A stretch of 64,000 nucleotides of DNA from Polaribacter sp. WD7 (GTDB lineage Bacteria > Bacteroidota > Bacteroidia > Flavobacteriales > Flavobacteriaceae): positions 1-64,000 of the forward strand of contig NZ_QPEJ01000018.1 in assembly GCF_003335085.1 (NCBI RefSeq), in the 5' to 3' direction. The notes below the pieces were generated by a model that ran no database searches, was not told the origin of the DNA, and worked only from the letters and a program-made list of their open reading frames with translations. This document shows positions 20,601 to 58,859 of the stretch, piece after piece. Position numbers and translations under genes: made by a program. The stretch's first letter is position 1, and every line of letters begins with the position of its first letter.

Positions 20601-21446
20601 ATGAAATTAAAATTATTATCATTTGTACTAATAACAACTCCTTTTTTGCTCTTCGCAATAGACAATAGCGATTACAAGAATACGTTAACTAAAGAATTTA
20701 ATATAGAAAAAGATCTTCTTCTTGTACAATTTGATTGCAAAACAGATGTAGACGATTTACACACTGTGGCTGCATTTGCTACTTTAGTAGCAAATCCTAA
20801 ATATTCAAAATTAAAGTATCATCCTGTAACAGGAACCTACGGTATTCAAAAAGGTTTATACGTTCCGCCAAATGATTTATTTGACCTCGCTTTTGGAAAT
20901 AAGTGGACAGACGCACATAAAGATGTTGAAAAAGCATTAAAAAAAGTTACGAAAATTACGAAAAGGATATTACGAAAAAACGGAGATATTTGGATTGCAG
21001 AAGCGGGTCAATCAGATTTTACAGCCAAACTTATTAAAGTCCTTCAAAACGATTTACCAAAAGTAAATATTACACAACGCGTGCATTTGGTACAACATAG
21101 TAGTTGGAATGAAAAATCTACTGCTCCAAAAAGTTTAGCATTTGTAAAAAACAATACTAATTATCATAAAATACCAGATGGTAATATTGTAGCAAATGGT
21201 TCGCCAGGATTTAGTGACGCTGCTTTTGTAAATTGGGAAAACGAAATTAAAAACGCTAAATTGTTAAAAATATGGCAACGTGCAATAGATATATCTAACC
21301 AATACAATGGCAAAGACAAGAGATACAACAACAAACACATAGCACAAGGTGGTTTGGATTTCTCTGACCTCTCTGAGGTCTGTTGGATTTTGAACCTAAA
21401 CTACATCAAAAATGTTGAACATTTTTTTAATTTGTATTTAAATTAA
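20601..21446 (+). CDS. Exported nucleoside-hydrolase-like protein
   Basis: A 281-residue protein with a signal peptide (LITTPFLLFA). Near the start of the mature part is VQFDCKTDVDDLHTVAAF, which resembles the calcium-binding DxDxxxDD box of inosine-uridine nucleoside hydrolases, and further on NGDIWIAEAGQSDFTAKL fits the second conserved strand. The family normally cleaves the N-glycosidic bond of ribonucleosides. The first aspartate of the box is shifted (DCKTDVDD), so activity is uncertain. It is followed by a palindromic repeat region. Confidence 0.55.
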   Translation: MKLKLLSFVLITTPFLLFAIDNSDYKNTLTKEFNIEKDLLLVQFDCKTDVDDLHTVAAFATLVANPKYSKLKYHPVTGTYGIQKGLYVPPNDLFDLAFGNKWTDAHKDVEKALKKVTKITKRILRKNGDIWIAEAGQSDFTAKLIKVLQNDLPKVNITQRVHLVQHSSWNEKSTAPKSLAFVKNNTNYHKIPDGNIVANGSPGFSDAAFVNWENEIKNAKLLKIWQRAIDISNQYNGKDKRYNNKHIAQGGLDFSDLSEVCWILNLNYIKNVEHFFNLYLN

Positions 21447-21455
21447 GAATAACCT

Positions 21456-21627
21456 GTTGTGCATTTTGAAAAATTCTGTCAACTCGAATAGATTTTATGA
21501 TTGAAATGAGTAAAATTTGTATCGAGAATAAGAATTTTTAGCTTATAAATAGTTCTCGATACAATTTTTCGTTCCTCAAAATCACTCGAACTTACATTTA
21601 TCTAGTTTCTACGCCAAAATGCACAAC
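21456..21627. repeat. Nested palindromic intergenic element
   Basis: An outer 13-bp inverted repeat (GTTGTGCATTTTG at 21456-21468, CAAAATGCACAAC at 21615-21627) encloses two head-to-head copies of a dispersed repeat. The inner arms are TTGTATCGAGAA (21517-21528) and TTCTCGATACAA (21553-21564). The plus copy runs from GTCAACTCGAATAGATTTTA; the minus copy reads GTAAGTTCGAGTGATTTTGA. Related copies exist at 33536-33585 and inside metG at 48490-48532. No coding capacity is seen. It could be a MITE-like or REP-like element. Confidence 0.6.
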
Positions 21628-21694
21628 GAGTTAAGAATACTTACTTGTTAACAAACAATATCAAGTGTACTTACTTTGATTATTGTGATATAAA

Positions 21695-46950: not shown

Positions 46951-49032
46951 ATGAGTGCACCAAAAAGATACACAATTACTTCAGCATTACCTTACACTAA
47001 TGGTCCAATTCATATAGGCCATTTAGCAGGTGTTTACGTTCCTGCAGATATTTATGCTCGTTATTTACGTGGTATTGGTAAAGATGTTGCTTTTATTGGA
47101 GGTTCTGATGAGCATGGAGTTGCCATACCTATGAGGGCTAAAAAAGAAGGTGTTTCTCCTAAAGACATTATAGATAAGTATCATACTATTATTAAAAAAT
47201 CATTTGAAGATTTCGGGATTTCTTTTGACAACTATTCTCGTACATCTGCAGAAATTCATCATAAAACTGCATCAGAATTTTTTACAAAATTATATAATGA
47301 TGGTGAGTTTGTAGAAGAAGTTACAGCACAGTTGTATGATGCAGAAGCAGATCAGTTTTTGGCTGATAGATTTGTTGTAGGTACTTGCCCAAAATGTGGT
47401 TTTGAAGAAAGCTACGGAGATCAATGTGAAAACTGTGGAACATCTCATAACGCCACAGATTTAATTAACCCAAAATCTGCAATTACAGGTAATGTGCCAA
47501 CTGTAAAAGAAACCAAACACTGGTTTTTACCTTTAGATAAGCACGAAGCTTTTTTAAGAGAATGGATTTTAGAAGGGCATAAAAAAGATTGGAAACCTAA
47601 TGTTTACGGACAAGTAAAAAGTTGGGTTGAAGATGGTTTGCGTCCAAGAGCTGTAACCAGAGATTTAGATTGGGGAATTCCTGTTCCTGTTGAAGGTGCA
47701 GAGGGTAAAGTGTTGTATGTTTGGTTTGATGCGCCAATTGGATATATTTCATCAACCAAAGAATGGGCGGCAAGAGAAGGTAAAAATTGGGAAGATTATT
47801 GGAAAAAAGACGATACCAAAATGGTACACTTTATTGGTAAAGACAATATTGTGTTTCATTGTATCATTTTTCCATCAATGTTAAAAGCACATGGTGATTA
47901 TATTTTGCCAGAAAACGTACCTGCCAATGAGTTTTTAAATTTAGAAGGCAATAAATTATCAACTTCTAAAAACTGGGCAGTTTGGTTGCATGAGTATTTA
48001 GAAGAATTTCCAAATCAGCAAGATGTCTTACGTTATACCTTAACAGCAAATGCACCAGAAAGTAAAGACAATGATTTTACTTGGAAAGATTTTCAAGCAA
48101 AAAACAACAACGAATTGGTTGCTATTTTTGGTAATTTTATCAATAGAGTTGTAGTTTTAACTAATAAATACTACTCGGGAATTGTTCCAGCTCCAAATAA
48201 CTTTTCAGAAGTTGATGAAGATGTTTTAGCTGCTGTAAAAGAATTTCCAAACACAATTGGTAAATCTATAGAGAGGTACCGTTTTAGAGAAGCTTCTCAA
48301 GAATTAATAAATTTAGCTAGACTTGGAAATAAATATTTGGCAGACGAAGAACCTTGGAAAGTAATTAAAGTTGATGAAGAGCGTGTAAAAACGATTATGT
48401 ATGTGGCACTGCAAATTGCAACTGCTTTAGCGGTTGTTTCTGAACCTTTTATTCCATTTACATCAACAAAGTTAAAATCAATTTTAAATGTCAGTTCGAG
48501 TGATTCGACAAAGGAGAATCGTATCGAGAACTCTTGGAACGACGTTACCCAAAAAGATATATTAATTCCTGCAGGTCATCAAATCAATAAAGCAGAATTG
48601 CTATTCTCAAAAATTGAAGACAAAACCATTGATGCTCAATTGGCAAAATTAGAAGCTACCAAATTGTCTAATGAACAAGAAAATAAGGTTGTAGAGCCTC
48701 AAAAAGAAACAATAGAGTTTGATGATTTTACAAAATTAGACATTAGAATTGGTACTATTTTAGAAGCAGAAAAAGTAGCTAAAACCAAAAAGTTATTAAA
48801 ACTTAAGGTTAATGTGGGTATAGATACAAGAACTATTGTTTCTGGTATTGCAGAAAGTTTTTCTCCTAAAGATATTATAGGGCAACAAGTTTCTGTTTTA
48901 GTAAATTTAGCACCTAGAAAAATAAGAGGAGTAGAAAGTCAGGGTATGATTTTAATGACAGATACTCCTGATGGAAAATTGGCTTTTATAGAACCTGAAA
49001 AAATGGTTAAAGATGGGCAACAGGTAAGTTAA
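46951..49032 (+). CDS. metG: Methionine-tRNA ligase with in-frame repeat insertion
   Basis: A 693-residue class I synthetase, start [15 protein letters not shown] at 46951. HIGH is at residues 21-24, the zinc knuckle is [18 protein letters not shown], and KLSTSK serves as KMSKS. The C-terminal EMAP-II/Trbp111-like tRNA-binding domain is at about 595-693 ([20 protein letters not shown]). At about residues 514-527 a segment [14 protein letters not shown] interrupts an otherwise familiar ILN...SWNDV region; its DNA is a dispersed palindromic repeat (48490-48532). The reading frame is kept, and the segment sits in the linker before the tRNA-binding domain. It overlaps the next gene by 1 bp. Confidence 0.95.
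48490..48532 (+). repeat. Dispersed palindromic repeat inside metG
   Basis: The segment GTCAGTTCGAGTGATTCGAC ... GAATCGTATCGAGAACT is a copy of the repeat also seen at 21477-21531, 21550-21596 (minus) and 33536-33585. It can fold as a hairpin (TTCGAGTGATTC with GAATCGTATCGAGAA). It is translated in frame as about 14 residues of metG. Confidence 0.65.
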
Positions 49033-58561: not shown

Positions 58562-58638
58562 GCGTTAGCGATTGCAGTGACATCACCTGAACTTGTTTCA
58601 GAGATAAAACCGAAAGCGCGACCTGAAAGGGAACGCCC
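58562..58638 (+). repeat. Dispersed intergenic repeat, copy B
   Basis: Opens GCGTTAGCGATTGCAGTGA, contains CCTGAACTTGTTTCAG (a hairpin), and ends GACCTGAAAGGGAACGCCC (58620-58638), which matches the end of copy A (900-918) with one mismatch. It fills the space between the VOC and zinc-ribbon genes. Confidence 0.6.
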
Positions 58639-58643
58639 TAAAA

Positions 58644-58859
58644 TTAAGAGGTAAAAAAATCAAAAACGTTACTTATTGCACTTGTTTTGGTTTTGTAGAA
58701 TTCGGTATACGTACAACGCTCGCAAGTTACGCTTGTAAATTTTTGATTCTGAATGTCAAAAATTTTTGATAACGTGCCTCCTGTTGCCCGCATTTGTCCT
58801 AGTTTGTATGTTTTAGCATTGCATTTAGGGCAGGTGTAATTTCTTATTTGATTACTCAT
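58644..58859 (-). CDS. Zinc-ribbon protein (DUF2082)
   Basis: A 71-residue protein starting MSNQIRNYTCPKCNAKTYKL. Two Cys pairs (Cys10, Cys13; Cys46, Cys49 in VTCERCTYTEFY) form a zinc ribbon around the TGGTLSKIFDIQNQKFTSVT core, the DUF2082 pattern. The function is unknown; nucleic-acid or protein interaction is likely. It is divergent from glnS across about 200 bp with no obvious further feature. Confidence 0.85.
   Translation of the reverse strand: MSNQIRNYTCPKCNAKTYKLGQMRATGGTLSKIFDIQNQKFTSVTCERCTYTEFYKTKTSAISNVFDFFTS

Follow-up and report, generated by a model that had tools for sequence, protein, structure and literature searches.

How a palindromic repeat comes to be read as protein within the gene of an essential enzyme, and whether such a case stands by itself, is the question raised by metG of Polaribacter sp. 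WD7. We examined this gene in a window of 64,000 nucleotides (the whole stretch of DNA analysed) and compared it with the remainder of the genome and with relatives. The metG ORF (46951..49029, + strand; 693 codons from the ATG at 46951, with the stop codon directly after) was identified as methionine--tRNA ligase (NF001100, E 1.3e-258), and the closest named relative is an uncultured Polaribacter (L013) at 90% identity. The repeat takes up 14 codons (48490..48531, + strand, in the frame from 46951), that is residues 514-527, and its 5' tag TGTC starts one base before 48490, within an Asn codon. The left arm AGTTCGAGTGATTC (48493..48506, + strand) consists of outer AGTTC and inner GATTC; the right arm GAATCGTATCGAGAACT (48516..48532, + strand) consists of inner GAATC and outer GAACT. 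The two arm sequences given in a preliminary description were confirmed letter for letter at 48490-48506 and 48516-48532 of the + strand. The 14-codon segment is predicted from the DNA to be part of the MetG protein.

We searched for further copies with each metG arm, allowing up to three mismatches. Each arm gave one other match in the window, at 21551-21595 on the - strand within one intergenic element; the expectation from shuffles was 0.05 and 0.08 for the two arms. The two-arm motif TTCTCGATAC-N6-36-TCACTCGAA was found in 11 copies in the genome (2.97 Mb, 17 contigs) and in none with the reversed-pattern control. With these counts, the claim that a dispersed palindromic repeat lies in frame in metG was upheld, and the doubt that all genome-wide copies might be due to chance was not borne out. 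No open frame of more than 73 codons covers any of the ten copies outside metG; around the metG copy the frame extends over at least 678 codons within its locus. Eight of the ten (L004, L005, L007-L012) are within a ∼180-nt MITE-like element with imperfect inverted ends (ACCTGTTGTGCATTTTG / CAAAATGCACAAC...), and apparent 9-bp target duplications were present at the copies read (L005, L012). The remaining two (L002, L003) are double hairpins. The other palindrome of the window is held by an intergenic MITE-like element at 21452..21630 (no strand assigned, end points set by eye), which has imperfect ends ACCTGTTGTGCATTTTG / CAAAATGCACAACGAG and is flanked by TTAAGAATA at 21443-21451 and 21631-21639 (also by eye). 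A separate 44-nt repeat (80% identical, GAAAGC..GACCTGAAAGGG.ACGCCC) occurs twice in the window, at 892-935 and 58612-58655.

The metG copy belongs to a family, here termed A, with conserved ends (AGTTCGAGTG ... TATCGAGAAC) and an interior that is variable yet mostly paired. The family's 41 loci yield 33 distinct inner segments, of which, by our own measure, 31 form a pairing of 5 bp or more, a level reached by 6.6% of shuffles. With 4 bp, the metG copy is among the two that fall short. Its inner stem (GATTC/GAATC) is absent from the other ten copies of the genome, and its exact 17-nt right arm was found once in the genome, in metG only.

The position of the repeat in the protein differs from that first proposed. 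Pfam places an anticodon-binding domain (Anticodon_3) at residues 412-566 and a tRNA-binding domain at 598-690. The repeat lies inside Anticodon_3, ∼70 residues ahead of the tRNA-binding domain, and not in a linker between the catalytic/anticodon part and the tRNA-binding tail, as the preliminary description had it. In a predicted MetG model (mean pLDDT 75), residues 513-528 connect helices 502-512 and 529-534, with pLDDT below 50 at residues 519-521, and Pyrococcus MetRS (1rqg) is shorter than the MetG of the window at this site. On the predicted model, the repeat lengthens an inter-helix loop within the anticodon-binding domain rather than a domain linker. Nor would the flanking ILN and SWNDV be contiguous without the repeat: in the repeat-free form met most often, five residues separate the N from the Ser/Thr preceding Trp (as in NLDETLSW). 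Judged from three sequence comparisons (L111 vs L110, L160 vs L019, and our own loop vs L098), the repeat appears to have replaced about 3-5 loop codons.

Next, we compared this loop in 163 distinct metG genes, mostly from Flavobacteriaceae (80 named relatives and 88 rows of a genus sample, 168 in all, minus 5 duplicate CDS). The 80 named loci were drawn by six peptide patterns, one of which (WNDVTQKD) adjoins the loop and introduces a selection bias. Repeat families were defined by self-written patterns and partly by eye reading, and the 127 of 163 genes that match no pattern perhaps include some decayed copies. A recognisable repeat was present at the loop in 38 of the 163 genes (36 by pattern; L040 and L121 by eye), distributed over families A (8, including L121), B (12), C (3), D (1), W (8) and G (6, including L040). 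No recognisable repeat was seen in the other 125, in line with the suggestion of a repeat insertion, and no relative was met with the same segment in a sequence unrelated to the repeat. The further suggestion of a rare case did not survive, given the 38 occupied loops and the repeats within Mfd, BioF-like, LeuS, HisA, IcmF and other genes described below. Among the 127 pattern-free genes the commonest spacing from IL to W is 7 residues (63 genes, e.g. NLDETLS), and 25 genes have a spacing of 10 residues. Family B is read at this loop in two frames, the SSAVE frame in 8 genes and the RAQSR frame in 4. With a slightly different pattern set, 35 repeats at the loop were forward and none reverse.

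A further comparison was made by blastn of the 168 metG CDS against 99 non-metG repeat loci. The loop was matched in 29 sequences, and our own loop (L093) matched 20 of the 99 library loci. Outside the loop, up to 136 sequences were matched at residues 45-74, 13 at residues 105-119, 11 at residues 135-149, and at most 4 in any other bin; the matches at residues 45-74 were provisionally taken as class I synthetase homology, library locus L222 being leuS. The reversed control gave 29 sequence-by-bin matches over the gene, 7 of them at residues 495-509 adjoining the loop and 1 at residues 525-539. A scan of the 168 CDS for perfect hairpins (stem of at least 8, loop of at most 12) did not single out the loop: 13 sequences had one there, five or six of which belong to a known family, and a larger peak (38) was found at residues 160-179. 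Among the 29 loci read besides our own in an order-wide sample, nine loci outside the family Flavobacteriaceae (L411, L420, L422, L424-L429) have short loops; within it, L403 carries family A and L404 resembles a decayed A. The loop of L180, read by eye, has a family A-like end and a family G-like start. Some metG genes were unusual in other ways. Those of L178 (genome G013) and L088 read with internal stops, and the G013 match is in two overlapping pieces. In many genomes from other families of the order (e.g. f6, f8, f11, f16; most of them smaller than 2 Mb) the MetG match runs out near residues 570-600, which gives the impression that these proteins lack the C-terminal tRNA-binding domain.

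Families A, B and W were also looked for across genomes. Family A end motifs were present in 61 of the 80 genomes searched, this genome included, and the control gave 0 in all 80; the family B core was present in 58 of 80, with a count of two B copies in this genome. The genomes carrying A in metG had 11 (G000), 4 (G049), 1 (G032), 6 (G097), 21 (G098), 8 (G099), 12 (G100) and 0 (G086) copies of A, and the single copy of G032 must be metG itself because its metG locus, L097, holds the pattern. Confluentibacter (G098) has a second copy identical to its metG core over 39 nt (C34:7897), plus several close variants. Genomes were searched for 11 of the 12 B carriers (all except that of L061), and all 11 contain at least two core copies (G084, 12; G059, 46; G081, 46; G020, 43; G013, 49; six named genomes, 2-28). 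B cores are also frequent where the metG loop is short (88 in G026). Family W consists of TGTC, an 8-bp stem ATTCTGAA/TTCAGAAT and the 5-nt loop CTTGA; Hyunsoonleella (G108) has one W copy, in its metG, and the W pattern had no match in the genome of L051 (G110). Copies of A and B are also common in non-carrier genomes, so copy number does not single out the carriers. Family A palindromes were also seen in tandem arrays with a regular spacing of ∼150-200 nt (G098:C1:399218-399559, G036:C1:617469-618125 and G067:C1:1731061-1731628).

We then considered whether the occupied loops share descent or were entered repeatedly. On a FastTree and on an IQ-TREE tree of metG, both built without the loop, the fewest family changes over all rows were 35, and the fewest presence changes were 29 and 28, respectively; such parsimony counts cannot separate gain from loss, some branches are weak, and the first metG alignment and trees take in L088 and L178, both with internal stops. 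Carriers are scattered over the MetG tree. The 83 genus rows include 15 with a repeat and require 15 family changes on the tree. Close tree relatives of this genome carry A (L094, L097), B (L095), C (L096, L105) and D (L102), and next to them are subclades in which the short loop is uniform. L097, from the genus of the window, and L022, from Confluentibacter, have the 42-nt element without a single mismatch. Outside it the two genes are 76% identical, and among 657 windows of 14 codons not one reaches the similarity of the element. These identities were computed on the element itself, not through the protein alignment, which misaligned the loop across genera. The L097/L022 identity suggests that the element entered, or was exchanged, recently in one or both of these genes. 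Against this, in L094 compared with our own L093 the element diverged in place at an ordinary rate (33/42). Family A copies in metG also have a similar inner stem across genera, a likeness that fits shared descent equally well. A pair of near-identical strains, one empty and one filled, was not seen among the metG genes compared, and for this reason the insertion event is one that we infer.

Repeats were also found within other genes. We checked 90 loci from three patterns (A, B and W, 30 each) for an open frame of at least 120 codons over the repeat. Such a frame was present at 3 of 30 A loci, 13 of 30 B loci and 11 of 30 W loci, with many of the repeats at frame ends. Internal copies lie in genes for LeuS, HisA, an RND transporter, a VioC-like monooxygenase, Mfd (three times), IcmF, a BioF-like enzyme, NamZ and MetG. 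One Mfd linker, read by eye in 32 rows (in which L341 and the query L250 are one gene), holds an inverted pair of W (L341), B (L357, L368), B plus reversed W (L262), another inverted pair (L257), reversed W plus a further palindrome (L344), and decayed forms. In 7 of 30 genomes we found a close BioF-like homologue, and 6 of these 7 have, by eye, a repeat at one site; L376 of this set has internal stops. The BioF-like gene of this genome (L371) is among the carriers, with two palindromes in inverted order. Unlike metG, the BioF-like site holds repeats in both orientations.

The metG segment is very probably, as far as sequence comparison can tell, a copy of a TGTC-tagged, REP/RPE-like palindrome that entered in frame and was tolerated in a permissive loop, as one case of a wider process in Flavobacteriaceae. 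The palindrome would have displaced a few codons of the inter-helix loop of the anticodon domain, probably by insertion rather than by capture through recombination, and the enzyme would tolerate the translated insert because the loop would be free to vary both in length and in sequence. In these bacteria several families of palindromic repeats may enter coding DNA. Copies in permissive loops would survive, so that the same loops (MetG, Mfd, BioF-like) would be filled again and again, and the copies would then decay by point mutation. Against this reading stand the inner stem of the metG copy, which is not shared with the other ten copies of this genome and pairs over fewer than 5 bp, the low counts of A in G032 and G086 and of W in G108 and G110, the frequency of A and B in genomes that are not carriers, and the lack of Y1 transposase and DUF559 in this genome. 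That the likeness of the coding loop to the intergenic repeat is a coincidence can be practically dismissed: the metG copy shares only short arms and has a private inner stem, but the shuffle expectations are far below one match, the spacing fits, the reversed control is empty, and the loop matches a fifth of the library loci. It is unlikely that the occupied loops go back to a single old insertion in an ancestor of Flavobacteriaceae, passed down vertically with loss or decay in most lineages, the families being its descendants or misreadings. Such an origin would agree with the constant position and the single orientation (35 of 35 pattern matches), with family A in several genera (L020, L022, L025, L403 and, decayed, L064) and its similar inner stem, with the mixed L180, and with the ordinary divergence of L094 from L093. 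It is at odds with the inner stems of B, C, W and G, which differ, B and W matching their own dispersed families; with the two reading frames of B; with the exceptional identity of L097 and L022 over 42 nt; and with the uniform short loop of large subclades.

A useful hairpin or peptide, acting for instance by slowing ribosomes as an mRNA structure or by altering tRNA binding as a loop, is a very improbable explanation. The loop is filled in many lineages, and L020 has kept pairing despite changes on both arms (GATGC/GCATC vs GATTC/GAATC). Against this, the metG repeat region folds as RNA no better than shuffles (z -0.44; 57 of 200 shuffles at least as good), the majority of metG genes do without a recognisable repeat, the carrier peptides are dissimilar (VSSSAVEN, LSSRAQSR, CHSELDSES), and the copies in L094, L105 and L121 look decayed by eye. 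The repeats are most likely REP/RPE-like passengers, probably of no benefit to the enzyme, that are tolerated in permissive loops, and the metG case looks like one instance of a recurrent process rather than a one-off. There is perhaps a modest chance that the metG loop acts as a landing pad, in which a resident palindrome is swapped for one of another family and the coding loop turns over together with the intergenic families. The swap might proceed via recombination or template switching at the common TGTC end, or via directed insertion. If true, it would explain why position and orientation do not vary, how L180 came to be mixed, why two genera share an identical element, and why close relatives of this genome are filled with A, B, C and D beside subclades whose short loops are uniform.

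Passenger palindromes of this kind suggest that fixed loops of conserved enzymes have time and again taken up non-coding repeats as protein sequence, providing many natural trials to compare. Two questions become testable: how CGTC/TGTC-type palindromes move, for which we know of no dedicated transposase, and how frequently repeats give rise to new stretches of protein. In the annotation of Flavobacteriaceae it should be kept in mind that loop indels in MetG, Mfd and BioF can be repeat-derived and are poor phylogenetic markers.

The metG repeat resembles several known systems. CGTC-tagged REPs are described, in the portions of the account available to us, as short palindromes with an unpaired terminal CGTC tag (often TGTC or CCTC), an 8-9 bp stem that opens with complementary AT, and a loop of 4-5 nt; they occur in Bacteroidetes among five phyla and are partly intragenic, tRNA synthetases included (PMC3733652). 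The metG copy has TGTC at its 5' side, and family W, by reading, matches the stem and loop sizes given there. The family A copy in metG differs in being longer, in a stem that starts with AG and not AT, and in having an internal loop. The source reports that no transposase gene was found flanked by these repeats and that a dedicated transposase is lacking (PMC3733652); here, among 17 Y1 ORFs read in relatives, no gene with the present families on both sides was found either. A single instance of different REPs occupying roughly one site, recB in two Xanthomonas species, is named there (PMC3733652), whereas here the same site is filled in many lineages and in several genes. RPEs, of which RPE-6 equals CGTC-1 and RPE-4 equals CGTC-4 according to that source (PMC3733652), are likewise dispersed palindromes lying in frame in conserved genes, and the present repeat is both intergenic and in frame. 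The host of RPEs is an intracellular alphaproteobacterium and that of the present repeat belongs to Bacteroidota; the insert here is 42 nt in contrast to ∼150 bp as stated in the accessible part of PMC10969869, and several families occupy one loop. GTAG REPs with RAYT are also scattered intergenic palindromes, some in inverted pairs, but the tag here is TGTC, this genome has no Y1 match, and some Y1 genes of relatives adjoin a palindrome other than the present families. The occurrence of 8 of the 11 own copies in an element with inverted ends is reminiscent of MITEs; the metG copy is a bare half-palindrome lacking those ends. At the level of titles and abstract openings, we found no account of repeated occupation of the MetG, Mfd or BioF loop. 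Already known, then, are in-frame palindromes in Rickettsia (RPE) and intragenic REPs; new is the repeated filling of fixed loops by several families in many Flavobacteriaceae lineages.

Two candidate movers were tried and rejected. Y1 transposase (PF01797, E 0.001) is present in 44 of 80 genomes and had no match in this one. Of the Y1 ORFs in twenty fetched regions, 17 were read, and not one is bordered on both sides by families A, B, C, D, W or G; AGACCTCACAGG-type palindromes were on both sides of 3 and on one side of 2, the rest having other repeats or none, and locus L321 has one B copy ∼580 nt off on one side. Y1 genes of ∼190 aa (MKYEVLVEDSFYHIYN... and variants) have AGACCTCACAGGTTT...AAACCTGTGAGGTCT palindromes on both sides (L323, L325, L327) or on one side (L321; variant L328). 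DUF559 nuclease was present in 56 of 80 genomes; neither this genome nor G036, with its 33 A and 63 B copies, has it. DUF559 nuclease-like domains were noted in frame inside LeuS (L222 by family search; L291, L295 and L297 by reading) and, by reading, within MetH, HsdR-like and RecG-like ORFs (a set with L273, L278, L284, L286 and L293). The DUF559-like domain gives the impression of a mobile nuclease element with in-frame insertion. Some of the in-frame domains are edged by translated palindromes (SPTLSEGKG ... SLSSGKR), and a free-standing copy (L274) has CTCCTCCTTTAAAAGGAGGAG on each side.
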